From assembly GCF_000003815.2 (NCBI RefSeq), contig NC_049995.1:7193576-7257575 (forward strand): DNA of 64,000 bases. The letters run 5' to 3'. Both the position numbers and the translations under genes were made by a program. The notes beneath the pieces are model-generated. The model was given only the letters and a program-made list of their open reading frames with translations, was not told the origin of the DNA and ran no database searches. This DNA comes from Branchiostoma floridae (taxonomy: Eukaryota; Chordata; Leptocardii; Amphioxiformes; Branchiostomatidae). Positions 25,436 through 53,148 of this stretch are shown one piece after another (position 1 is the first letter of the stretch; each line of letters opens with the position of its first letter).

Positions 25436-26356
25436 GTCCGTGGTCAGTGTTACTATTAAGGTCATTAAATATATTGAACTTATCTAATAAGGACAGCTGC
25501 AGCTGGATGGGTTGTGATGATATGTGGCTTGGGAAGTAACGTTGTATTTTGGAAGTCATCGCTTACGATGAATCAGTGTAATATATCCTAAACTAAAATT
25601 TAGTACTAGATTAGATAAGCAATAGAGAAAGAGTTTAAAAAGATAGTTGGGAATGGTAGATACGGAAGCGATTGTTGGTATTCTGTAATGTGTAATGCTA
25701 TTTTCTTAGAAAAAATATATCTTAAGCTTTAAAACCCTGTAGAAAAGAAATAGCCATGTTACTGTTTGGAAGATTAAGCTTATGTCGAAGCTGTCATTGT
25801 TTCCGTTTTTACGCATGCTCAGTGGTAATGCGCTGACCCATGTTACGTCACTCATCAATGCACAATCAATGTGATTCTTAGTCCAAAAAGAGTAGTTACT
25901 TACCTTCTGTCGACTGTGCACTTCTGGGATGGTCGCCACTTCGTGATCCTGATGTTCTCCAAACACTTTACACATAGAACATATGGGAGACTGGCAGGCC
26001 ATACAGTACACGTTTATCCTCTCTTCTTCATGAACCTCGCACATCAGCTCTTCCTTCTTCTTAGTGATCTTGATCCCTGTCCCTTCCATCTCCTGTTTGT
26101 AGATGTCGATGATGTTCTCGACCAGGAGGTTTCGCTGGAGCCCGTAGACGCCATGGCGGTCGAGCACGACCTCGTGACGGCAGGTTGGGCAGCGGAACCG
26201 GCCGCCGCTCCCGACCACGCTCGGTGTACCCCGCGACTGAAACACGTCGTTGGCGCACTTGCGACAGAGATTGTGCTGGCATGGTAGTATCAGCACCGGT
26301 TTGTTGAACATCTCCAAACAGATGGGGCACGTCAGCTGCCTCTCTAAGTTGTCCAT
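10164..26356 (-). CDS. MuRF-type TRIM ubiquitin ligase (TRIM54/55/63-like) with alternative C-terminal tails
   Basis: RING E3 ligase of the muscle RING-finger group, which in vertebrates acts at the sarcomere and on microtubules. Exons in transcript order: 26356-25904 (RING, B-box), 19048-18953, 18277-18146, 17724-17623, 17548-17447, 16776-16754, 16480-16359 (COS box), then alternative ends. All splice phases fit. The RING reads [20 protein letters not shown] and is followed by [30 protein letters not shown] is nearly identical to vertebrate MuRFs. The B-box has [13 protein letters not shown] and [14 protein letters not shown]. The COS-box segment [12 protein letters not shown] matches the MuRF EQGFENMDFF block. 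After exon 16480-16359 (ending in phase 1), exon 16007-15640, exon 14524-14172, exon 13529-13300 and the cassette 13117-12663 / 12317-12198 / 10547-10164 can each be joined in frame. The first intron of the coding region is 6.9 kb. One gene here against three in vertebrates is expected for a pre-duplication chordate. Confidence 0.92.
11640..11985. mobile_element. Foldback/MITE element, copy 1
   Basis: The left end taggccatattaatttgatt is matched in reverse by the right end (ccaaatcaacatggcctta). The same terminal sequence bounds the element at 22520-23400. Contains a G10 run near 11919. Confidence 0.6.
12198..12317 (-). CDS. MuRF long-tail cassette, middle exon (iii-b)
   Basis: 40 codons, phase 0 at both ends, between acceptor ttctgccag and donor gtgagg. 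It encodes a Pro/Thr-rich disordered linker ([18 protein letters not shown]). GC content is higher than the surrounding introns, consistent with coding use. Confidence 0.65.
12663..13117 (-). CDS. MuRF long-tail cassette, first exon (iii-a)
   Basis: Starts after ttccaaag in phase 1 and ends at a good donor (tcg|gtaagt) in phase 0. It encodes 151 full codons: a Pro-rich start, a degenerate acidic repeat ([20 protein letters not shown] type), a basic patch [12 protein letters not shown], and [17 protein letters not shown]. The acceptor choice is the weak point: an ORF continues upstream, but only with a non-ATG start and intron-like pyrimidines. Confidence 0.65.
13300..13529 (-). CDS. Possible MuRF alternative last exon (iv), weak
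   Basis: The acceptor ctttgtttcag is strong, and the following frame fits phase 1. It encodes 75 residues rich in Cys and hydrophobics with [14 protein letters not shown], then a stop. No similarity to the other tails beyond a TPE motif. It could be chance. Confidence 0.3.
14172..14524 (-). pseudogene. MuRF alternative last exon (ii) with an apparent frameshift
   Basis: After acceptor cttgaacag the exon opens in the phase required by exon 16480-16359 and reads [20 protein letters not shown] and on to IRQSFP. At a run of six C (six G on plus, 14440-14445) the coding-like frame changes and continues with [20 protein letters not shown] to the end [10 protein letters not shown] and a stop at 14172-14174. 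Both halves look like one acidic-to-basic tail. The break could be a sequencing error in the homopolymer, an allelic indel, or real decay. Read without correction the first frame stops at about 14390. Confidence 0.55.
15459..15464 (-). terminator. Polyadenylation signal candidate for MuRF ending (i)
   Basis: TTTATT on plus equals AATAAA on minus, about 175 bases beyond the stop codon at 15640. Confidence 0.4.
15640..16007 (-). CDS. MuRF alternative last exon (i): acidic Ser-rich tail
   Basis: 122 codons including stop, joined in phase 1 to exon 16480-16359. The tail is acidic and Ser/Pro-rich with [19 protein letters not shown] and the end TLFGIINQ. As the nearest ending it is the likely default; vertebrate MuRFs also end in an acidic tail. 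A possible AATAAA lies at 15459-15464. Confidence 0.8.
16754..16776 (-). CDS. MuRF 23-nt microexon
   Basis: Flanked by cacgcag and gtacgt, it encodes KTKELIV plus two bases. The next exon (16480) supplies one base to make Arg, then INQAIESS. The join restores the vertebrate segment AKQLIKSIVEAS, which would otherwise be missing three to seven residues. Confidence 0.85.
16919..16975. repeat. Short tandem duplication in MuRF intron
   Basis: ccaccgctgccaccagtg occurs twice, about 30 bases apart. No coding frame with splice sites was found around it. Confidence 0.6.
17447..17548 (-). CDS. MuRF coiled-coil exon, duplicate copy B
   Basis: 34 codons, phase 0 at both ends: [17 protein letters not shown], then a segment ending [12 protein letters not shown]. 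It is homologous over its whole length to copy A (17623-17724). Only one copy is needed to match the vertebrate MuRF coil length (LDEPGGATFLLT region), so the two are likely used in the alternative. Confidence 0.88.
17623..17724 (-). CDS. MuRF coiled-coil exon, duplicate copy A
   Basis: 34 codons, phase 0 at both ends: [20 protein letters not shown], then a segment ending [12 protein letters not shown]. The intron between copies A and B is only 74 bases (17549-17622), so joining A directly to B may be sterically hard, as in known mutually exclusive exon pairs. The frame would be kept with A, B or both. Confidence 0.88.
20595..20975. repeat. 200-bp direct tandem duplication
   Basis: The block starting ctgtttatcgg at 20595 recurs from 20795 with scattered changes: tttgcgaaaacc, tatgtatcactgatgacgctg, aacgataattgaag, ccctatc, atcatgtcgtctg and aatccctcatg all repeat in order. 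Confidence 0.85.
20966..21140. mobile_element. Short repeat starting with a hairpin (accttcgccaagaaggt type)
   Basis: Begins with the palindrome accttcgccaagaaggt, followed by a T/TG-rich stretch and aactcaaggacgcctgcatgg. The same style of start (acctccatg..catggaggt) occurs at 25319 and 61780. Probably a common short non-autonomous element; boundaries uncertain. Confidence 0.45.
21640..21815. repeat. GA-rich microsatellite (gacagagagagac)
   Basis: Purine-rich tandem of GAGA, GACA and GATA on the plus strand, inside the MuRF intron. ORFs reading Ser/Leu runs on the other strand are artefacts. Confidence 0.9.
22023..22220. mobile_element. MITE, family A, copy 1
   Basis: taacgctagttcgcctttat and ggggtaacctatatccgttg at the left are matched in reverse by caacaaatataggttacccc and acctagcgcaacggtta at the right. 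The terminal inverted repeats are about 55 bases. A second copy lies at 62398-62627. Confidence 0.85.
22520..23400. mobile_element. Foldback/MITE element, copy 2
   Basis: Terminal inverted repeats: taggccacgttgatttgatt continuing to gatgacatcc at the left, and ggatgtcatccatataatca continuing to catggcctta at the right. Both arms continue into A- or T-runs (22584, 23301). The 22.8-23.4 kb reading frame is contained in the element and has no recognisable product. Confidence 0.75.
25311..25436. repeat. Palindrome plus (GT)n microsatellite
   Basis: acctccatgattaaaatggaggt forms a hairpin and is followed by a (GT)n run at about 25374-25436. The same palindrome occurs at 61780-61806. Confidence 0.8.
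25904..26356 (-). CDS. MuRF exon 1 coding part: RING and B-box
   Basis: 151 codons from ATG (26354-26356) to the donor at 25903. The reading frame stays open upstream to 26527 but without an ATG, so this start is chosen; it gives [17 protein letters not shown], the same spacing from Met to the first RING Cys as in vertebrate MuRFs. C3HC4 RING residues and the zinc-binding B-box residues are all present. Confidence 0.93.
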
Positions 26357-26728
26357 CTTGCTGTAGAATACGCGTGAAGAAAATATCGGTGGAAAATCAC
26401 AGCGGAGAGACTTGACGTGACTGCAACTCGCTACCCGCAAATTCTTTCCGTCTGACCGCTCTATAGCCTTGTGGATACTGAGTCCCGAGCCAGGCGTTAC
26501 CCGAAAATAGCTTTTCACTCTGCCCACATTTGAAGCACGTCTAGTACTAATTCTCCAGCCCCAACATTGCCACTAAAATTGAAGACGCTCAGTTTGACGT
26601 AATGTGACAAGTTCAATACCTTCAAGACTTCAGACGACAGGTTTTTCTAATCGTCAGGGATAGATCTGAAAACACAGTCCGTGGGGGTTACGCATACTCA
26701 GTGTCGGGGATACAGGAGGAAGGGGCGG

Positions 26729-28849: not shown

Positions 28850-29059
28850 ATGTCATTCGCACGCATACTGGCAATATGGAATCAAAAATCGTCACCTGTG
28901 TGTTGTTGGATCTCTAAGATATACGTTACGGTGAACGGTGCAGAAAATGCAGGTACACTAAATATTTTTGTGCTAGAATCGCCACCAGAGCTATTAAGGA
29001 TGGCACTCGGTCCCCTTACAATAGAGACAGAGCCGGTCGAGGAGGAACCACTATTAAAG
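28850..29059 (+). CDS. Tentative first coding exon of the SAMHD1-like gene
   Basis: 70 codons from ATG to donor aaag|gtaaca, phase 0. The join with 29881 gives [11 protein letters not shown], matching the human K-VINDPIHG including Lys116. The rest (for example [20 protein letters not shown]) resembles no domain I know and is not a SAM domain. It could instead be an internal exon with an acceptor at about 28918. Confidence 0.45.
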
Positions 29060-32000
29060 GTAACAGATGCCCTTACTGTTAGACTCTGAGTTAGCCAATT
29101 CTGGATCAATTACAGACATGCAGACATAAACACTCACACACACACACACACACACATACACACATACAAGCATCCACACTCACACACACACACACACAAA
29201 CACAAACACACACTCACTCACATATACACACAAACATACCCACCCCCACCCCTCCACCCCCACACACATGCACACACACACATACACTCACAGATACACA
29301 CACACACACGCACACCTGCATGCCCATTTGAGCTTTCGTGAGTAAATAAAGGTTCAAACAAACAAACAAACAAACACTCACACAGACACACACACACATA
29401 CACACACACACACACAAACACACACTTACACACACAAACACACACACACACAAACACACATACAAAGTCATTAACACCCCCTCCACATCCACACAAATGT
29501 AAATTCACCCAAAAACATATATAAAGAATACACACATAAATACACACACATATATATATATATGCATACAAAAATATATGTATACAGTGTCACATACATG
29601 AATAAGCGATAGATACACGTACATACATCAATTGGCACATAAAACACAGACACACACATACTAGTACGTGCACACCGATACACATACATAAACACGCATA
29701 CATAGGAAGACGTATGTTAACGCATAAATATAAGCATACACAACGCTATATAGTCTACTACTCCTACTCCTACTACAACTACACACACATCAACAGACTC
29801 ATTGTTCGCTGTTTACCATTGGCAGGCATGAATGCAGAATGGTAAGCGTATAACATTGAAATTTGTTACTAAAATTGACTCAGGTATTCAACGATCCCAT
29901 CCATGGGTCTATAGAACTACCTGCTATCTGTGTTGCCATCATCGACACTCCTGAGTTCCAAAGACTTCGCCACATCAAACAACTGGGACTCACGTGTCTC
30001 GTGTATCCTACTGCCGTCCACACCCGCTTCGACCATTCCATAGGGTAACACAAAGTCTTTTCATTATATCAGTCTGTCCAGCAACCCTTTAGCTTGAATA
30101 TGTGTAACATAGTTATGAATTTTAAACTCAGTTCATAACCTTATGGAGAATACAAATTTCTTGGCAATAGCACCTCGCGTCGCGTGATCTGTGTGACCTT
30201 TGACACCTAGGTCACGTATATGGACTGCATTGAATTGTCGTACAGCAATTGTCCATATTCTTGTTTGTATCTTATAGTCCTCAGACACAACAACTTTGTC
30301 ATGAATCAATCGTTGTGGTAATAATCTGCTGATAGTTACAGCATTTTATCTTTGCAATAATTTGAATTACCATTAAATGAGTAATTCCAATGCATAATGA
30401 AGTACGAACTCCAGGAAGAATAATATGCCTATTTCACATTGTTTATGGAAATTCCCGATAAAAATACAGAAAATTCTATCCTTACGATTCATTTTTTTTC
30501 AGGGTATGTCACCTGGCTGATGAAATGGTGCAGGCCCTCAGGAAACGGCACGGACCAAAGGACAGTCGTCCTATTGACATCACGGAGGAAGAGCACCTCT
30601 GTGTCATGATCGCTGGACTCTGCAGAGATCTGGGTACTAGTATGCCATGATAATGGGTTACACTATGAAGTTTGCACTCATGTCAGATGAATTCTTCTTC
30701 TCATGATTGACAGGAAGCGTAATTTTCTTTACTTTCCCATTGGGTGCCTTATGTTCTTTTATGTTGTGGAAGCCGTTTTTATCATCAATAATTAGTATTT
30801 GCAGGAAAGAACGATGTAGTTTATTTTAGTTTGGGCACCATAATTCAATTCAACATTTGTAACAAGTTTAAATGCATAGAAGTTACAAAAGCCAAAAGGT
30901 CTCACTGCTACTAAGAAAAGAAAATGTACTAAATGAAATTGTACCAAAACCAGCACAAGAAGTATATATGCTTGTTGCTGTATTGTGTGATGTGTTTCGT
31001 GGAATTAGCATTATTGCAATGAATGCTGGAATGCTTCGATTTCCATGCATGCAGTTTTCAGTAACCATGTTATGACAATTAACATAGCAATAATATATCG
31101 ATATTTTTTTTCAAAAGGTTACAATATAAGATAAGGCAAGGGTTTACATGTATATGTGGAATTGGAGCTTTATCCTATTAATGAAATATTGTTTAACTTC
31201 ACACATTGATTATGAACCCCTCTTACTTTGAACAGGTTTCGGACCGTTCTCGCATCTCTTTGATCAAAGGTTTATGCGGAATAAGGAGAAAGACTACACA
31301 GTAGGTTTCTATCCGTATGGGTGTGGTCTCAAAACTTTCTATTATGTTACTTTTTATTTACATTTTGTTGATTAATACAATGGTATGAACGTAATACTAT
31401 TCTGATTTCAGCCAGGGGCTATGTCAGCAAAAATCTTTGGGGAAATCTGCAAAAAGCCAAGAATCGAGAAGCTCCTTCAGGTAATTGGCTTGATATTACA
31501 GATTATATGAATATTTTGTGCGCAGTATCTTGGCATACTTTGACATAGAATGTTGGCACCAGACTCCCAAATTGTTTGTTAGGTTGATTACATTTATTTT
31601 ATTTGTTGTGGAAAAGACTAAACTTTACGTAACCAACACCAAGTTAGATTGGGACAAATTTTCAGCCGACTCCGTCAGCCTTGTTCACGTAAAGCTTAGT
31701 CTTTTCCACAATGTCATATACCAACACAGATGAACTTTCATATTTTATTTGTTTCTTGGAATATTCTGTTACCCTTTAGGAAAACAACCTAGAAAAGGAG
31801 ATTAAGTTCATCCAGGAGTTGATTGATCCTCCTCCAGGTTTATGGGAAAAGGTACATCAGCTGAAGAATATTTAATTTTGTCATTCCTGTCGTTGCCTTC
31901 TTTTTCCCCTCCTTTCTGTTTTTTTTTCACTTCTTGAAATTAACGATTTTCATGTTCTGTTACAATATCGGCGTCACATTTCTTTATTGCACATTCGGTA

Positions 32001-35000
32001 AGTACAGATAGATCACAGTTTATGCCTTTGAAGCTTTTTAATCAAATGAGGTACAATTTTTGTGTTTGAAAGCAGCGTTTTTGGCTTGGTGAACATTAAG
32101 ACACAAAATAATGCGATGAATATTATGTCCATATTATTTAGTGAAATTTCTATACAGAATTTTGTATTGAAATTAGGCTTGTTTCATGTTTTTTATGACT
32201 TCAGGATAGCACAAGGACAGCATACAAGGTATGTTCATTTCCATAATTCAATCTTTCAAAGACACATTTTTTGTATTTCATACTAGACTACTCACCTTGC
32301 TCGTTTTAAAGCAAGACATGTTTTATATTTCTGTTTTCCCGTTAGACCCGGTGGTTCTGCGAAGGACGAGGCGAGGACAAGAGCTACCTCTACTTGGTAA
32401 GATACACCCTTCACCTATCCCTGAAGCGCTCAATCCTAGAAGCCCTTCTTGGATAGAAGCATATCTGGGCTGCAACAGACTTGGCTATAAGTTTACCTTT
32501 GTTTATAAAAAATCTAAATATGAAAGCATAATCAGCACAAAAGAATATTTACATTCATTAGGAATAATAGATGGATTTGAAAAATTACAGAATCTACATA
32601 TTAATACATATTTTGATATCATGAAAATTTAGATCGTGAAGAACACGCTGAATGGAATCGACGTGGCCAAGTGGGACTACTGCGCACGGGACTGCCACTT
32701 CCTCGGCATCCCCAACAGCTTTGACCATCAGCGCCTGCTCAAGTTCTCAAGGGTGTTAGAGTGGGGAGGGCGTTCCGAGATATGCTTCAAATTTAAGGTC
32801 AGTTTGCAGTTGTTCTACTGAAATTGATTTTCATGAGATAAAGCAGATATTTAAAAGAATTCGTCTAAGTATTATATGCAATGATGAAATGTACAAATGT
32901 GACAGGTTATTTCTGTATAATATAACCAGCTGCTGCCGCACCGCGTGCCTGCAGAGCTGGTGTGTTACGCCGAAGGGCGGTTCTATAAAAACTTAGATAA
33001 AAATACAAATATGCAAGCGATTCAAGCCAATAACCATCTACTATAGGATCGTCTATTAAGAACGATGCGAAGGTAATTTTGTGCAAATAGAAACGTATAG
33101 AACTATTTTGCATAAATTGCTTTAAAAATATAGATTTTGAAATTCTTGTTGGTACTTGGATCTAAAATCCATTATAGTTTTGTCACATCTGACCCCCTCG
33201 TTGATTCTGTTCATTTTCTAGGAGGCCTTCAACTTGTATAACCTGTACCGGATGAGGCATGTACTTCACATGCGAGCCTATCAGCACTCAGCGAAGAATG
33301 CCGCCGAAATCATGTATGTATTGATATTGTAGCCTAACCTAACCTTTCCTTACTTCATACAGCCATGTAACAGAGACAAATTCATATTCCTGGTGAATCT
33401 AAACAAGTCTTTGACTGTAAAATCTATCTGTTCCTACATTTTCAGCTAGTATCACAAAGAAGCGAGAAGAAGTCGAATTCACTTAGTACGGTTTTATTGG
33501 TTGACATTGTCTATATTAAATGTATTTGTCCACTATTCTTTTAATGTATCCGTAAACTATTCTTTAGTTGTGACCTGTACCTAAACCAGTGGGCATATGC
33601 ACAGTAAAGGTACTCATTCATTCATATATTATGTACATTGTTATATACGTGCAGAAAACAAGCTTACTAATAACGTCCATAACGAGTACAACCTTTGTTT
33701 TCGACACATGTATAAAGGGATGCTATGAAGAATTAGAGCTAGATAAGTAGGGGTAGGGTTTTAAGTATTATTCTGATTTTCAAGGCAAACCATATGTAAA
33801 ATGATGAAGCCTTGTTTTAAGAACTCATAAGCAAATTGTAATGGCCCTCTCCGTTCACCCAAGTTTTATTCGTTGGTGTTGTAGGTTTTCAGAGGCATTG
33901 GAAGAAGTGGACAAATCATTGACTATAGCTAGAAAGGACACAGGACTGAACATGCTCTTTGGTGAAGGGTAAGATTGATTTTCATTGTGAACTTTAAAAA
34001 ATAGGTAAACAGTAATACTTCAGATATTATTGTCAGCTAATTGAGAAATACATTTGAGTCATACGATATATGTTAAATATCGATATTTGTCTGATTTTAT
34101 TCCATCATGAGCAAACTTACCAATAGCATATTTCTATTATTACCAAGGAATCTGTCTGGCAGAGTTGACAACGTGCATGACTTCTTGTCCCTGACGGACG
34201 ATATCTACAGAAGGATCTTGCTCTGTCCTCCTCATCCCGACATCGACAGTGCAAGGGCGATCCTTCAGAAGATTGATGAACGACAGTTGTACAAGCTAGT
34301 CGTAGAAGCAACGTACAGTGCCAAAGTCAAGGAGGTAAGGTTACCAATGAAATCAAGCTGTGTAAAAATATCAACACTTAACAACACAGTTTGTTGAGCT
34401 AAGCGATCCACCACGAACCAACTATTTTCAACTTTAAATCATAAAGATGTGATGCTGCATGACGATAAAACAGTGGCTTTTCTTCATATTTTCTTTTACA
34501 GGACGAGATTTCACTCAGTGCATGGAAAGCCCTCGGCATTCAAAATTTAGACTCCCACGAAAGATTGGCCTTTATTGAGGTTAGCTATTTGTTTATTTCT
34601 TATGTTATTAATAATATGTCCTAAAATATAATGCCTGTTGTTGGTGTATAGTACAAAATGACCAATGTTACCTGAAAGACTGGCGCTGAAGAAGAAAGAC
34701 TGAAATTAATGATTATTGCTTTTTATCAGACCGTTTATTTCGATTATGGCGTGAACAGAGAGGAACCCCTGAGGAATGTTCACTTCTTCACTAAGTGCGA
34801 GCCGAACGTGCCTTTCTTCCTTCGAAAGGAACAGGTATTTGTTACTTTTAATCTTTACTCGTTTTTACCTGGCCTTAACACCTGCCTTTGAGTATAGTTT
34901 GATATTGCGTAAAAGTTTAGTGAACAAAAAATAATGCATAATGCTCATGAATGATGGTGTTTTTAAAAACTGTTTTATCAATTTGTACAGAAATGATTAC

Positions 35001-37186
35001 ATCACAAACAAAAGGATTGCTATGGTCAAGAATTTTAACATATTCCCTTGTATAATTGTACGTTTTTTTTATCGATAGGAGCCACGAGTACTCCCAGAGA
35101 ACATGTTGGAGCGGAAAATAAGGGTCTATTGCAAGAGCACGGAGACTTCTTGTCGGGACAACATCCATGAGTAAGTTTAAAAAGCTGCACCCATGCCGTA
35201 ATCTGCATAGAATTCTCAGCAATTTCAAATAGGAGACTACAGCAGGGTCGTAGGTTCCAAATAACCTCCGCCGCCCCCGAAAGTTTATCGAATGCTTCAA
35301 ATCTATTTTCTGTAGAGGCCTGATGCAGTGGTGGACTGAACAATACCAGTCAGGGGCCATACTTTCCACGGTAACGTGTTTTGACTATTTTTTTTCCTTT
35401 GATCAAATTTCACACCTTAAGGAATTTCATGGTAGTTTTAACACGTGCACACTTCATGACTCAAGGAGGTGAATTGAAGCATTTCTTCCCTTATCAAGTT
35501 TTTGTTGTTGTTGCTATTATTATTGAATTTCCTTTACTCGAATCGTAAATTCAATTAAATATATGTTAGGTACCGTTCGCATGTAGCGCATAATTGTGTC
35601 CTAGCTCGCTTGGGATGAAATGATTTGCACATCTAGATGTAGTGCTGAAATGGCGACAACTGCATATTTTTTCGAACTGTATTGTTGTCCAAAGAATATG
35701 TTTTCTTTTCATACAGCCTCCAAATGTAATATGTCCGTCAACGCCTGCGTCCAGTCAAAAGACATCCCCAGACTTCAAAGCCAACGTCCACAAACGGGAG
35801 CCGCATTTAGAAGAAAACCGTGCAAAACGACATCTCAGTAGGGTAGGAAAGACACTATCCCTTCCTTCGCCACTGAAAATATGTCAATAACCGGTAACAT
35901 CTCTCCTTACTTCATTAATTAGCTCAGCTCTTTTCTAAAAAAAGGTATCACATGAAACACAGATCAAATAGTATCTAGAAGTTTTGAATCATTCTAATTC
36001 TAATGCTTAGCTAATAAATGTTCATTATGCTGTGCATTGCTTAACCGGATGTTCATAGTTCATGTTAAAAAGCTATCTTCTAAGAAAGAGAAACATACTA
36101 CCTTTTAACGATTTTCTTTTCTTATTTGCCGTAGGATTTGGAAGATCTTCCATCAACCTCACAGCAATCCAGGAGATCAGAGCGAATTGCAAAAAAGATG
36201 GTAAATGTGATTTTGATGCACCATTCTCACGTTCAGCTTCTTAGGGATTTCAATTTACGTCGATGTAGGTTAGACATCCAGGTAATGAGATACGCCAAAA
36301 AGTAGTTACTCAAGCAACTGGATATGGTTTTGATTTCAATTTGTTTTATTCAATACATCACCATTCACATCATGCCATCATTTTCATTGGTCTGTGTAAA
36401 GAAAATAATTTCTTTACGTTTTTACTTTGAAAGGCAAGGTGCACCATTTTGCTAAAAAACAGGTGTGGTGTTAGACAATGCTGTCCAGAATTAGGACCTT
36501 AACTTTCTTTTTCTTTTCATAGAGAACCGAAGAGCAGCATTCTGAGCCAACAAAAGATACAACGACTATTCAAGAGGAAGGTAAGTAGTACATTATACAT
36601 CAAGCAAACTAAATCTAGAAGCATTTTGAACTACTCAATAATGTATGAATTTCTACTGTATATATAGCAATTGCAAGTTAAATGAAATAAACACGTATTC
36701 AAACTGTACGTCTTTTGCGCCTGTATAAAACACCGATTTGGTCTTTGAGACTGAAGATAAGTCCGCCCTACCTCGAACCAATAGAAAATATCTTCTTGAC
36801 AAGACGGAAGGCCAAAATGTCGTAAGGAAATGACAGTTTATTATTAATCTTAATCGCTACAAGAGGTTGCTTCTATAATTACCTTTTAATTGTTTTTTTC
36901 GACAGCACTGAAAAAATCTTTCCACGTAGTCGTAGAAAACGCACGTGATAATTGGAAAGAAATCGGCCGACGCCTTCAGTTCACAGAAACCGACATTAAC
37001 AGCATCGACCAGAAGGAACGTGGAGACTGCACGGAGTGCATGAGGACTGTACTTCATCGATGGACCGCTCGCGAAGGAAAGCGCGCTACCATCTTTCGGC
37101 TGATGGAGGCGCTTAAAGCAGCCAGAAATGTGGATGTCATGGAAAAAGTCAGTGATATTGCAAATGAATTGGAATTGAAGGAATAA
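28850..37186 (+). CDS. SAMHD1-like HD-domain protein with C-terminal death domain, probable pseudoenzyme
   Basis: Exons: 28850-29059 (tentative first), 29881-30044, 30503-30633, 31236-31300, 31412-31480, 31780-31851, 32205-32228, 32346-32396, 32633-32797, 33222-33313, 33885-33968, 34148-34334, 34502-34579, 34730-34834, 35079-35170, 35316-35370, 35717-35842, 36135-36200, 36523-36580, 36906-37186 (stop TAA). All phases agree; about 724 residues. It follows human SAMHD1 from VFNDPIHG to IRVYCK. By human numbering recalled from memory: His167, Asp207, His215, Asp218, Lys312, Tyr315 and Asp319 are kept. Metal ligands His206 and Asp311 are Arg and Ala (GLCRDLG, DVAKWDY), and His210 and His233 are Phe and Pro. 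GTP-site residues Lys116, Val117, Asn119, Asp137, Gln142, Arg145, Arg451 and Lys455 are kept. No SAM domain is seen. An 80-residue Ser/Thr/charged linker leads to a death domain. Likely a nucleotide-binding, non-hydrolysing signalling protein (inference). Confidence 0.9.
29131..29510. repeat. (CA)n-rich microsatellite block
   Basis: Several interrupted CA arrays in the intron after exon 28850-29059, continuing in AT/CA-rich sequence to about 29720. A LINE-tail-like piece (gagctttcgtgagtaaataa aggttcaaac) is embedded at 29330-29361. Confidence 0.9.
31606..31711. repeat. Near-perfect 28-bp inverted repeat (hairpin) in intron
   Basis: ttgtggaaaagactaaactt (31606) is matched in reverse by aagcttagtcttttccacaa (31692-31711), and the arms continue outward from the loop with tacgtaac/gttcacgta. 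Loop about 49 bases. It lies in the intron between exons 31412-31480 and 31780-31851. Confidence 0.8.
33540..33645 (+). mobile_element. LINE 3'-end fragment with (ATTC)n tail
   Basis: gtgacctgtacctaaaccag, then agtaaaggtactcattcattcat: the form of a CR1/L2-like 3' end with a short tandem tail. No coding part remains. Confidence 0.4.
36248..36330 (-). mobile_element. Repeat fragment shared (inverted) with 44860-44940
   Basis: About 78 bases here are nearly the reverse complement of 44864-44940 (for example agtagttactcaagcaactg against cagttgcttgagtaactact). Likely a fragment of the same Penelope-like or related retroelement. Confidence 0.7.
36906..37186 (+). CDS. Death-domain exon of the SAMHD1-like gene
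   Basis: A single exon encodes the whole domain: [58 protein letters not shown]. The two Trp, the DI-x-x-I helix motif and the W-x(6)-AT-x(2)-L-x(2)-AL pattern are typical of death domains. The exon begins in phase 1, a common arrangement for shuffled domains. Confidence 0.88.
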
Positions 37187-46800: not shown

Positions 46801-49800
46801 AAGACTTGATTTTAGACTGTTCACGACTGTATGAATGTTTGTTGATGAACGAGGTAATTCTGGGACGGCTGGGTGGATAGTTTTCATATTTGGTGTGTTG
46901 CTGGTTTGTAACAAGAACTGAAAATGATTAGATTTAGGGGGCCCCTGGTGGCTTGGCCTTTTACTGCAGCAAAATCTAAATTTTGCTTTGCTACCTTTGT
47001 ACTCTTGTTTATATCAATTTTATTCATTTATTTGCAAATTCATACCCGAAGGCTAATTGCAAGGGTGCAGACAGTAAAAAGTAACAAGTGTCTATTCTAT
47101 ACAGCTATCTATATACACGATTCTACATTGTTTATTGGGAGGTTTGACTTCTTCTTTGGAGGCAGTGGCCCACGTCTTTAATGGTTAGTGGGTTCTGTGT
47201 TTTTAATAGGAATATATTTTTTGGAGGTCTACCAACTGGTGACAAGTTGGAAATATTGTATTGATTGTGTCGAAAACGGTTGTTTCTTTCATCCTCATAA
47301 TGGGGGCAGTTACATTCATCTTCCACTGCTTTCGTCGCACAGTATTTGCACAATCTATCTTGAACTGACAACTTTTTATAACGACCCTTCTTTAGTGGGT
47401 GAGCACTGATTCTTATCTTACATACATTGGGCCTCTTGTCAGCGTCGTTCTGGTACAGATAGGTTTCCATGGCATATTCGGTTTTTATATGTTTTGTAAA
47501 ATCTTAGTTTGCCGTTATCTTTAGACAATTGCTGGAAAAAACGTTTGGACAAACACGTCTGAAAGTATTTTCCTTAACAATGTACAAATATTCTTGCTGT
47601 CTATTCTAGAGCTATGATAGTTCCATAGTAATAATCATCAAATATTTGTTTTGAAGCCAAGTTTTCTTATGATTGTTTACAGATAAATTTTGTTGACAAA
47701 GTAGTACGTCTATTTGTAAAGGTGGTTTAGAGTAATCTTACTGTTTAAGGCTTAGCCAATACTTAACTATGCGGATTGCTATATCTATGCCTGTTGGGTA
47801 GACTCCAAGTTCTGCTCTACAAGCAGAGTTACAGGAATTCCTATGCACGCCGAGGATATTTTTACAAAAGCGGGTTTGGATATTTTCCACTGGACAGTTA
47901 TCTTTTCCACAGTCTATACCCAAGATCTCACTGCCATATAATATGATGGGCTTAATACACGTATTGAATAGCTTTAGTAGGGGAATAGCGTTTTAAGAGT
48001 GAGAGGTTTGAGGCCGAATACAGCTTTACGTGCCTTTAGGGACAGATTCCTTTTAGCTGGGGAATAAGTACCTGACGAGGACAACGTCAGGCCTAGGTAA
48101 GGGTAGGAGTTTGCGATTTCGATGTTATCTATGCCAAATGAAAAATTGAGTCACCCTGATTTGTTAAAGAACACGGCTTTAGTTTTCTTTAGATTCACCT
48201 GCAATTACCATTTTTCGAAGAAGGAATGGCACATGTCAAGGGCACATTAATTGTAAGCCGGTTTCAGACTCTGAAAGTAGCACTACATCATCTGCGTAAA
48301 GTAGACAGGAGACGAGGAGGTGTTGTAGAGAGGGTGGGTCGCAGTCGGGGCTATTCAAATTTTTAACTAAATCATCTATAATTTATAAATAAGTTAAGAG
48401 TAGGACTGAGGTTGTATCCTTGGCTTACACCTCTGTCTGTTGTAAATAGTGGTGTAGGGCCGGTAGGAGTTTTAACACATGTCATCGGATTAGAGTACAT
48501 GGATTTCATCAATTTGTAGAACTTGCCGCCTATGCCTAAATTGGGTAGTTTGTAACGTAGACCTTCTCGCCAGACGCAGTCAAAAGCTTTTCTAAAGTCT
48601 ATAAAGCAGGCGTAGAGGCGTCTGTTGGTACTCGTGTATTTAGCTATCAGTGTGTCAATAACAAAGATGTTGTCGTTAGTTCTGAAATCATTTCTGAAGC
48701 CAGTCTGGTTGGGGGAAATAAGATTGTGATCATCTATATATTCGTTGAGACGATTATTTATTATCGTTGTGAATGATTTGGCAAGGCAGCTAATTACAGA
48801 GATTCCCCTGTAATTGTTCGGGTCATCTTTATGTAGAGGTACAATGTGGTTTTCACGCCATTGTTGGGTAAAGTGCCCGGTTGAAAGGATTAAGTTGAAC
48901 AGTTTAGTTAATGTATATGTAAGGATATGTGCTGCACATTTTAGCATTTCGTTCAGTATAAGGTCGTTACCTGATGCTTTGTTATTCTTTAATTTGGAGA
49001 TGGCTTCTTTCGTCCTGTTGGATCTCGGAATCTAAGGGGTTATAAATTGCAGCGCTGTTTTCTAATTGTACTAGTTTGTTACTGATCAGTGATTGGAATG
49101 GGCTATCGGTTTCCGGATCTTTGGACTTAGTTTTTCCGTATAATCCTTGGAAGTACGTATGGAGTGTTTGTTTGTCAATTGTTTCTTCTGTTGGACTAGA
49201 GTTTTCTGTTTTTAACTGTTTACTAGGTTCCAAAACTCTGAGGGGTTGTTGGTGGATAAGGAGTTAATTTGTTGGAAAATACTGTTTTTGTAATCCTTTT
49301 TTTTTGTTTTCTTTTGTTTTTGCCTGGTGTATTCTCTTTTCCTTTTAAAGTATTGACCCCGGATGAAGGGATCCCGGGGAATTGTTGATAACGATTTGGC
49401 TAAGTCTTAAGTTTCTTCTGGCGGTGTTACATCTTGTAGTGAACCATTTCTTGGGTTTGGGTTTATGTCGGGTCTGTTTTCTTTGTTTCATGCAACGTAA
49501 TGTTAGTTATTGTTTGCCTGCTACTTGTAAGGGTACTATGAAGTCATTTAGTGCATTCTCAACTCAGCTAGGGGATGTCTCGTAATTTCTTTTGTTAAAA
49601 TTGTCTATAGTACGAGAGAATTATGTGCTGTTAACTATGTCCGTAAACCTTTCTTTAGAGTCAGCACTCCATTCAAATTTGTAGTGGGGCCGGGCAGACA
49701 AGGTATCAGTAGTCTGTTCAGTGATTTGTTTAGTGTTGATATTTAGAATTAGGGACAATTTACACTGGTCTGAAAGTGGGGTTAGGGGGTGACGTGAAAG

Positions 49801-52800
49801 AAACAGCTTTTGCGTAAGAGAATTGTTTCGCTTGCCAGGACATAGTCGACCACGCTAGAGCCGTTAGGCTGATAACTTGTGGGTTTCCCTAATACGTCTC
49901 CTGGTGTCCTGCCATTTAAGATTCTGACTTTATTGTTAATGCATAAGTCGACTAGGTTTTTACCAAAGGGAGAAGGACTACCTAAATCCACGTTGTTACG
50001 GTGGAACAGGTGATCGAAATCGTAGTCTTCGGGGAGACTGTCAGTTTGGTAGTCGCCTTCTATGTAGTATTTCAGGTCCCCTACCCGGGCATTGAAGCCC
50101 CCCCCCCCCCCGCAATTATTACCTCTCCTTGTCTACTGTGTATTGATATTTCGTCCTCCAGAGTATCAAATATGTCATACATTCTGTTGCTGTGGATAGT
50201 AGATATGATAGGACTGATGTAAACTGTAGCTAAATAAGTATCTCTATTGGTATTAAGTAGTCATTTGTCTATTTTTACCCACAATATATCTTCTGATTTG
50301 CTATCTATTTTTGTAATAAAATTGCTATACTGCTTTTTAAACAGAAATATTATTCCACCAGAGTTCCGTCTTGCTTTCTTTGACTTTGTCCTGGTGCTAG
50401 AGAAATAAAGAAAATTAGGAAAATGAACCTTACCTGATTGCCATGTCTCAACTAGAGAGAAGTCAAACCCGTCTATTTCACTAATGAAATCGCTATCGTC
50501 TACTTTTTCTCCATAAACCATGAATGTTCCAGAATCCGAATGAAAAACCATAGTTCTCATTAGAGTTCTTTCTAGTTTTGTTGCCACAATGTGTCGTCCT
50601 TCTTGGATGACACATCACTTGTATCCACGAGGTCTTCCGCTGGGTCCTGTGAAGGCTCCAAACCACCCGTTGTTGAAGGGTGGATACAGTGGTGGTGCAG
50701 TCCACATCGGGGGCATTCTGTACAGCGTGCCCCCGTAGGCCTCCGTTACAGACGGCCATTCAGAAGAAGTGGGGTAGAAGGGTTGAGTTGTCTCGGTCCA
50801 CTGAACGGACTTGGTGTCGGCGGGTGCTGGTTTGGCCGTGTACGAGGCGCTCGGTGGTTGGTCTTGTTATTCCCTTGTTCAGTGGTTGGGACACGTGATG
50901 CCTGGCTTCCGCGAGAGTCTCGAGTGTTCTTGTTATACGAGGTGCGATCACGGTTGTCGTTGGGGATGATTTCTGGGTACAAGACCTTGGGGCCCTGTGG
51001 CCTCTTTCTTTAGGTTGTAGCCCAGGACCCTGACGCCATCATCTCTTAGATGATATCCATCCCGAACAAACATCTTCTCGTTGCAATCACCGCCTTTTAA
51101 AATTTGGGGGTGGCTCACGAAGGTCATCGCGTTGTTTGTTTCGCACATGTTCCTTAGGTGTAGGTTCACAGCGGTGATATCATCCTTCACGGTGCTGGCG
51201 TGTAGCTCTCTTCTGTGGGACTGCCGATATAGCCACGTCAGCGTTTGGGACAACGACTGTGTTGTGCTTATCGCTGTTTCGAAGTCATTAATCACAGTGT
51301 TCTTGGACTTGAAGACGACATCGTTTGTGCCAACGTGAAGTATCACAGTGTCTGGAGCAGACTGTTCCTCGCGCAGTTTCTCTAGAACCGTCAGGGTGTC
51401 TGTGAGGGTCGGTGCTCAGATAGGTTTTGGGAGGTCTGCGGTTGGACTCATCAGGAGACTGGGTTTTAGTTTCTGGGCATTGGAGTCACCGATTAATACT
51501 ACACGCCTTGACTTTGGTGTGGAGTTCTGTGAACGGGGTTTGGCGGAGGGTGCTTTGTTTGTTATAGATCTGATCAGTTCTTTTGGGTTCGATTCCGGGT
51601 CGTCATCGACTTGTAGAGCATCAAAACGGTTAGAAGTGTTGACGGCGTAGCCCAGAATGAGGTTTTGTTCGGGTTGCTTGTTGTTCTTGGCCACAGCCTG
51701 ATCAAGTAAAGCTTCCTGTATGTTAGCGACTTTCACTTTCAAGGTGCTGTGGCAGACTTTCACTTCACTTATGTCACCTTGGATGCTTGTTGTCTCGGTT
51801 TTGTAAGGATGTAACAAGACTCTCCAGGTGTTTGACTCGGTTACAGAGTTGTTTGTTTACGTCTTGTACGTAGTTTTTTGTTATCAACTTTCAGTTTCTT
51901 GAGTTCTGCCTCCTGCTTGACTGGGGGGCAAGACGAGTCTAGTTGCTCTATGGTGGCTGTTTGAGGTGTTTCGGTCTTCTCATTGTCTGGTTTGAGTCTT
52001 TCATTGTTGGGATGCTTTGTTTTGCATTTTTGCCTGCCTGGGTGCAGCGTGGCGGAGGTGCGAAATGGCGTTGGTCAGCTTCGCTTTGTTCTGTTGAGGG
52101 TATGTCGTCCTGTGGAATGTGACAGTTTATACAGTGGTACTTCTCGTCTGTGTTTTTGAGGAGGGATTTGATTTCTTCACTCAAGCCTTTGCAGTCAATG
52201 TGCGTCCAGCTGGCACAATCGTTGACGAACTCGTCGCCGTCTTTTTCGTGTTTGTCACAGACGGCGCATTTCGTGACTTGTTCTGTTCCACCGTAGTCGG
52301 CCACGTTTGGTTGTAGCTAGCTCAGCTGCGTCTGCCAGTACCATGGCTTGCAGGGTATCGTAATGTGAGCACAGCCATAGAGCGTAGCCGCTACCTTGTA
52401 TCAAAAGCCTATGGGTGTTGTACACTGTGATGTGGATTGAGCCAAGTTCTCTCTCGAGCTGTTGAACAGAGTCTCTGAACGTGGTGCTAAACTGAGTGCT
52501 AAACTGAGTACCTTTCGCTGTGACCCGATCTTTCCCTCGTACACCGTAGTATGATGCACATACTGATTTCCACGAGGACAGGGTGTTGCTTGGGATATAA
52601 ATAGTTATGGAACAGGAATTGTGTGTGACTCTGTGGTACCCTATTTCGCCGGTGGGGTTAGAGATCTTGTTCCGAGTGTCCATTAAAGACAAAAAGGCAG
52701 CTCTTACCTCCGAAAGGTACTTTCCACTGATCTTGTGACGATACGTTTTCTTTTCGGCGAGTCTCAGTTTCTTTACGTACTCCTGTTCCTTGGTGTACTC

Positions 52801-53148
52801 TTGAACGAAGATACTACATGTTTCATATACTTCGTCGTTGGAAGCAGATTCCGTCAGGTGGAGCAGTTGTCGGACTTTAGGTCGGTTGCCTGGGGGTGGG
52901 GACGCCGCCGCCATCTTGGACGCCATGTTGGTCGCTTGGTCTTCCGTCAAGTTCGAAGTAGAGATTTCTAAGAAAAGATAACCTCTAAGACATTACTGAG
53001 GTTATCAAAAGTTATCAATGGGTAAACTGTAACGTTAGGAATATCTGGAGCAAAAACCAGGGCCCAGGGTGACCTCTAGGTAAGATAAAATTACAACATT
53101 GTCGGAGCGTCGGTTTTACCGTCCGAAACTGGCAACATCCGGGTACAA

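Follow-up and report, generated by a model that had tools for sequence, protein, structure and literature searches.

The window, a stretch of 64,000 nucleotides on contig C17 of the amphioxus Branchiostoma floridae genome, contains a predicted gene of 20 exons and 723 codons on the + strand (28850-37186), in which an animal-type copy of SAMHD1 has lost metal and catalytic residues, retains its guanine pocket and the majority of its nucleotide contacts, and continues in frame from its core into a death-domain exon of amphioxus type. A probability of about one half is given to the reading that this is a working amphioxus gene encoding a SAMHD1 pseudoenzyme with a death domain, in which a guanine ligand would pair the HD cores and so cluster the death domains. 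What is new is the joining of a SAMHD1 without catalytic residues to a death domain; fusions of HD and death-type domains, and shuffled death domains, are known.

Gene model and family placement

The extent originally proposed for the gene was borne out: the first ATG is at 28850, the TAA stop codon ends at 37186, and all 19 introns have GT-AG boundaries and are in phase, so that the frame is kept throughout (Table 1). Exon 1 has a good donor site, but no Pfam match and a coding score of -0.09 per codon, which amounts to no coding signal. Scores are above zero in 18 of the 19 other exons, with a coding table trained on exons 2-16; those of the linker exons 18 and 19 are weak, and these two exons were placed by splice logic. 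Two candidate exons (33047-33072 and 33576-33608) were dropped because they break the frame and because the direct joins of exons 9 to 10 and 10 to 11 match human SAMHD1 with no gap.

Table 1. Predicted exons of the SAMHD1/death-domain gene in the window; residue numbers are those of human SAMHD1
Feature	Position	Strand	Content or basis
Exon 1 (candidate, doubtful)	28850..29059	+	70 aa; supplies Met and putative K116 Lys; frame and donor
Exon 2	29884..30044	+	VFNDPIHG...FDHS; H167, guanine-pocket D137/Q142/R145, Q149, L150, R164
Exon 3	30503..30633	+	AGLCRDL; H206 to R, D207 kept
Exon 4	31236..31300	+	H210 to F; H215, D218 kept
Exon 5	31412..31480	+	PGAMS replaces HE..S; H233 to P, E234 to G
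Exon 6	31780..31851	+	Forms a single exon with exon 5 in both paralogues
Exon 7	32205..32228	+	24 nt; no clear counterpart in paralogue A or B
Exon 8	32346..32396	+	Gene model, paralogue comparison
Exon 9	32633..32797	+	D311 to A, R352 to K; K312, Y315, D319, D330, R333, K354 kept
Exon 10	33222..33313	+	alpha13 and AYQH; D361 to N, H364 to R, K377 to S; N358, R366, Y374, Q375, H376 kept
Exon 11	33885..33968	+	Gene model
Exon 12	34148..34334	+	R451, K455 kept (DERQLYK)
Exon 13	34502..34579	+	Gene model
Exon 14	34730..34834	+	K523 kept
Exon 15	35079..35170	+	Gene model, paralogue comparison
Exon 16	35316..35370	+	End of SAMHD1 core (QWW)
Exon 17	35717..35842	+	Tail; position of paralogue A's terminal exon, without its stop
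Exon 18	36135..36200	+	Putative linker
Exon 19	36523..36580	+	Putative linker; ends in phase 1
Exon 20	36906..37186	+	Death domain and stop codon; phase-1 acceptor

The genome (513.4 Mb in 431 contigs) was searched for other SAMHD1 copies. An exon-by-exon search with the HD family model PF01966 gave 0 matches, a consequence of working exon by exon, and protein searches took its place. Three loci were found among the best candidates scored: the window gene, paralogue A (C6:15.03 Mb) and paralogue B (C6:5.88 Mb; L025). The core of the window gene (exons 2-16) matches SAMHD1 structures in the PDB by phmmer with an E value of 4e-95 and 322 bits over core-query residues 1-467, so its identity is not a matter of chance; 180 of 449 aligned residues are identical to human SAMHD1 and 178 of 423 to paralogue A. 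The Pfam HD model scores 20.6 on the window gene, just under the cut-off of 22, and 41.1 on paralogue A.

In a tree of 27 of the 80 prokaryotic homologues used below and five animal sequences, the other amphioxus copies included, the animal sequences form one clade with 100/100 support and the window gene falls inside it, the branching order among the five being unsettled. Of the animal sequences, that of the window gene lies on the longest branch (1.36, compared with 0.2 for paralogue A, 0.52 for paralogue B and 0.084 for human SAMHD1). With animal SAMHD1 it shares the same core and a place in this clade, and most of its exons have intron positions in common with paralogues A and B, the boundaries of exon 2 being identical in all three; it differs from animal SAMHD1 in its dismantled catalytic centre, in its partly altered AL2 and alpha13 residues, in its added death domain and in the SAM domain, of which none was found. 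The lack of a SAM domain had been predicted, and agrees with the absence of a Pfam match on the gene model, whose true first exons are uncertain, and with a search of the upstream + strand by the SAM exons of paralogue A, which retrieved nothing convincing. The SAM domain of paralogue A, which resembles the one in SAMHD1, was recognized by PDB 2e8o (E = 9e-6) and by Pfam SAM_1 (E = 9e-4, just below the cut-off); no counterpart of its SAM exons was found upstream of paralogue B within the DNA examined.

Paralogues A and B, which share family and genome with the window gene, differ from it in the catalytic residues and the death domain. Both keep all of H167, H206, D207, H210, H233 and D311, and a profile made from death-domain exons of amphioxus, which detects exon 20 in the window gene, gave no hit over its threshold within the 30 kb examined around each of them. 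Paralogue B has Lys in place of N119, Gln in place of R333 and Glu in place of D218; these substitutions possibly reflect altered allostery in a protein that has kept its catalytic residues.

The catalytic centre and its conservation background

Residues are numbered as in human SAMHD1, from structure 6u6x (chain number + 93 = residue). Alignment with human SAMHD1 put the catalytic positions where the original prediction had placed them and confirmed its four substitutions relative to the human protein, H206R, H210F, H233P and D311A; a fifth, E234 to Gly, was absent from its list. Two of the four metal ligands (H167, H206, D207 and D311) are changed, H206 to Arg and D311 to Ala, whereas H167 and D207 are kept, as are H215 and D218. 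In human SAMHD1, it is reported that H206R/D207N and D311A abolish hydrolysis, that loss of D311 alone inactivates the enzyme, and that H210A or H233A disrupts catalysis (PMC7045340). Crystals of the H206R/D207N protein still contain bound dNTP, and the catalytic site of the H210A crystal is without nucleotide (PMC7045340); by analogy with the latter, H210F makes it less likely that a ligand occupies the former catalytic site, which it may block. A dismantled catalytic centre in the SAMHD1 core is thus supported by residue comparison.

The losses were compared with a background of near-universal alignment columns, defined as those on which human SAMHD1, paralogue A and 90% or more of a set of 80 prokaryotic homologues agree. 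The 80 prokaryotic rows were taken from 102 confirmed relatives, which had been found by two sequence patterns over human residues 119-126 and 135-142. The window gene keeps 37 of 42 near-universal columns, the five lost being H206, H210, H233, E234 and D311, and six catalytic columns listed beforehand are enriched among the losses (P = 6e-4 over the 42 columns). When columns of the search patterns are removed, 34 columns are left, the same five are lost and P is 1.5e-3. With 37 non-redundant homologues there are also 34 columns, and losses in the window gene are confined to 206, 210, 233 and 311 (P = 3e-4, or 1e-3 without the search-pattern columns), E234 being below the threshold in this set (32 of 37). 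Paralogue B keeps 41 of the 42 columns, R333 being lost, and loses none of the 34 non-redundant ones. The excess of catalytic loss holds only against near-universal columns: against the loose background of columns common to human SAMHD1 and paralogue A, catalytic loss is ordinary (4 of 7, compared with 118 of 270; P = 0.36), and the proposition that catalytic residues were lost more than residues in general was rejected.

Nucleotide-contact columns are kept in excess: the window gene retains 22 of 25 of them, compared with 127 of 238 in the background (p = 6e-4). The excess is also present when conservation in paralogue B is required (20 of 22, compared with 102 of 160; p = 0.014). N380 and D383 were omitted from this test, since human SAMHD1 and paralogue A differ at these positions, where the window gene has Asn and Glu. 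Q149, R164, H215, K312, D319 and R366 belong to the SAMHD1 pocket. L150, Y315, Y374, Q375, N380 and D383 are described as pocket residues (PMC7045340). Ten pocket residues were tested, and the window gene has every one of them.

This retention, together with that of H167, D207, D218 and H215, would be in keeping with a catalytic activity that has been kept or changed, for example by the use of other metal ligands or another substrate, but the disappearance of two of the four metal ligands and of H210, H233 and E234, and the inactivity of human SAMHD1 after loss of D311 or disruption by H210A or H233A (PMC7045340), make such activity quite unlikely. The loss of catalytic residues on the fastest animal branch is also what would be expected of a decaying SAMHD1 pseudogene with a frame that has stayed open so far by chance. 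This explanation is highly improbable: the 723 codons are free of stops and frameshifts, the splice dinucleotides of all 19 introns are intact, the other 37 near-universal columns are all kept, and under neutral decay at 5% divergence the estimated chance of finding no stop in the gene is 0.012, or 2e-7 when damage to splice sites and indels at an assumed rate are added.

The death domain and its predicted fusion to the core

The death domain expected at the C-terminus was matched by Pfam Death with an E value of 5.5e-13 on the whole gene model (49.3 bits; cut-off 22.6) and of 1.3e-14 on exon 20 alone. The closest solved structures are the death domains of FADD and RIPK1 (about 1e-8), from which that of the window gene differs in being joined to a SAMHD1 core, with neither a DED nor a kinase in the model. 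Shuffled death-domain proteins are reported to be common in amphioxus (PMC2575513), and at least 150 death-domain matches were counted among 220 candidates from the genome, three of them being the window gene's own locus. The closest death domain among the matches listed, 51% identical to that of exon 20, is in gene L029 (C223:167385-170621), which differs from the window gene in having no SAMHD1 core and a TIR domain downstream of the death domain (Pfam TIR_2, E = 3e-9).

The phase-1 acceptor of exon 20 is situated 2 nt ahead of the domain, and the same is true of 16 of 20 other distinct amphioxus death-domain exons, counted by an AG in place, that is, by predicted splicing; on account of this common acceptor, exon 20 looks like a shuffled module. 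Unlike exon 20, the death domains of L029 and L030, which phmmer ranks first and third in closeness to it, have a phase-0 AG. Most of the amphioxus death domains examined (L031, L032-L046) share the phase-1 acceptor exon, as a shuffling module would.

The terminal exon of paralogue A has a stop, whereas exon 17 of the window gene has none and is predicted to run on through two short linker exons to exon 20. Thr-Pro is present in both of these exons, a likeness noted by eye, and that of exon 17 is presumably comparable to the Thr592-Pro site of human SAMHD1. Frame-keeping bridges with equal splice scores were obtained in 2 of 200 shuffles and in 2 of 160 stretches taken from elsewhere in the window; since the thresholds were taken from the exons themselves, after the fact, this rarity is support for the fusion, not proof. 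AATAAA occurs at 36013 and at 36686, between exon 17 and exon 20 and upstream of the death domain, and owing to these poly-A-like signals a shorter transcript is possible.

Signals of this kind between the two parts, and the large number of death-domain genes in amphioxus, would equally suit two adjoining genes, namely a SAMHD1 pseudoenzyme that ends at exon 17 and, beyond it, an independent small gene for a death domain, but this arrangement is unlikely. The phase-1 acceptor of exon 20 needs an upstream exon that ends in phase 1, which exon 19 supplies in the SAMHD1 frame; exon 17 has no stop where the terminal exon of paralogue A stops; and equal bridges are rare elsewhere, with the post hoc thresholds already mentioned. 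A single gene with the death domain in the SAMHD1 frame is the preferred reading.

Nucleotide sites, proposed mechanism and comparison with known proteins

In the AL1 guanine site, V117, N119, D137, Q142, R145, R451 and K455 are identical to the human residues, and Y374-Q375-H376 (AYQH) is kept, all in agreement with what had been foreseen; K116, which had also been listed among the retained GTP-site residues, is left unsecured because it is supplied by exon 1 alone, with its lack of coding signal and Pfam match. The AL2 dNTP site (N119, V156, F157, D330, R333, R352, K354, N358, H376, K377 and K523) keeps 8 of 11 residues, the changes being F157Y, R352K and K377S. The alpha13 dimer-dimer residues D361, H364 and R372 are Asn, Arg and Arg, so that one of three is kept.

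In human SAMHD1, guanine in AL1 is reported to stabilise dimers and dNTP in AL2 then to give tetramers, which are lowered by D361K and H364K (PMC7045340). Guanine-containing oligonucleotides are described as spanning AL1 and AL2 by way of D137, Q142, R145, R451 and H376 and as trapping dimers, their binding being unaffected by R352A and K523A (PMC7854603). Since this whole guanine/oligonucleotide set is kept in the window gene and the tetramer contacts are altered, ligand-driven dimers would be favoured, and in view of D361N, H364R, R352K and K377S a guanine-driven dimer appears to fit better than a GTP/dNTP tetramer. The original prediction, of an oligomerising scaffold that would signal through its death domain, is partly supported at the sequence level: dismantled catalysis, the guanine pocket, the death domain, a phase-consistent gene and the failure to find a SAM domain all agree with it, but the simple tetramer version is weakened by the same four substitutions.

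In the mechanism proposed, two HD cores would be paired by GTP, or by an oligonucleotide that contains guanine, bound in AL1, and because nothing would be hydrolysed, the complex would persist. A dimer, or an oligomer packed in a different way, would be likelier than the canonical tetramer, given the changed dimer-dimer surface. Once paired, the death domains would attract partners with death domains like those of FADD or RIPK1, and cell-death or NF-kB-type signalling would begin. A tentative extension is that the protein is a dead-enzyme sensor, in which the ligand-driven dimer would directly nucleate a death-domain complex. A single cytosolic protein would then both detect guanine nucleotide, or foreign nucleic acid, and connect that detection to cell death or NF-kB.

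In one study, dNTPase activity reportedly mattered for immune suppression. Catalytically dead human SAMHD1 is described as binding MAVS as the wild type does and as damping interferon signalling (PMC10404699), which by analogy would be a precedent for scaffolding without catalysis. This precedent, the changed AL2 and alpha13 residues and the fast terminal branch would all agree with a ligand-independent scaffold, in which the dead HD core would be a constitutive dimer or a surface where other proteins dock, and the death domain would connect it to a pathway, the whole perhaps inhibiting signalling through death domains in a dominant way; however, a pure scaffold would have no need of the guanine pocket and of 22 of 25 contacts that are kept over a background of 127 of 238, and such a scaffold is somewhat improbable. 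The preferred reading remains that of a pseudoenzyme in which a guanine ligand brings the HD cores together.

In proteins of the sponge Amphimedon, an HD domain is reported to accompany Death-like and TRADD-N domains, and these proteins resemble the window gene in joining an HD-type domain to a death-superfamily adaptor (PMC8195603). Their HD domain is C-terminal, behind TRADD-N, and is offered there as an enzymatic effector (PMC8195603), whereas the window gene begins with a SAMHD1 predicted to be catalytically dead and ends with the death domain. In the literature searched, which was mostly without subscription papers, no relevant report was found of SAMHD1 in amphioxus, Branchiostoma or lancelet, no report by title of a SAMHD1 and death-domain fusion, and only a review on SAMHD1 as a pseudoenzyme. 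The predicted protein suggests that an ancient antiviral enzyme has been converted to the role of a sensor or scaffold. If the preferred reading is true, the recognition of nucleotides or nucleic acids by SAMHD1 would be separated from dNTPase chemistry in a natural protein, which would bear directly on the open argument over whether the antiviral and immune roles of SAMHD1 need catalysis. One chordate would then have both canonical and altered SAMHD1, and would offer a testable case of an antiviral enzyme becoming a sensor by loss of catalysis and shuffling of a death-domain exon.

Other features of the window include an open reading frame with RING and B-box zinc fingers (TRIM-like) at 25709-26572 on the - strand, just upstream of the window gene and in the opposite direction; open reading frames at 48375-52992 on the - strand that resemble a LINE-type retrotransposon, with reverse transcriptase and endonuclease motifs recognized by eye; and, at 1412-1771 on the + strand, an open reading frame built of repeats with a 12-letter protein unit.
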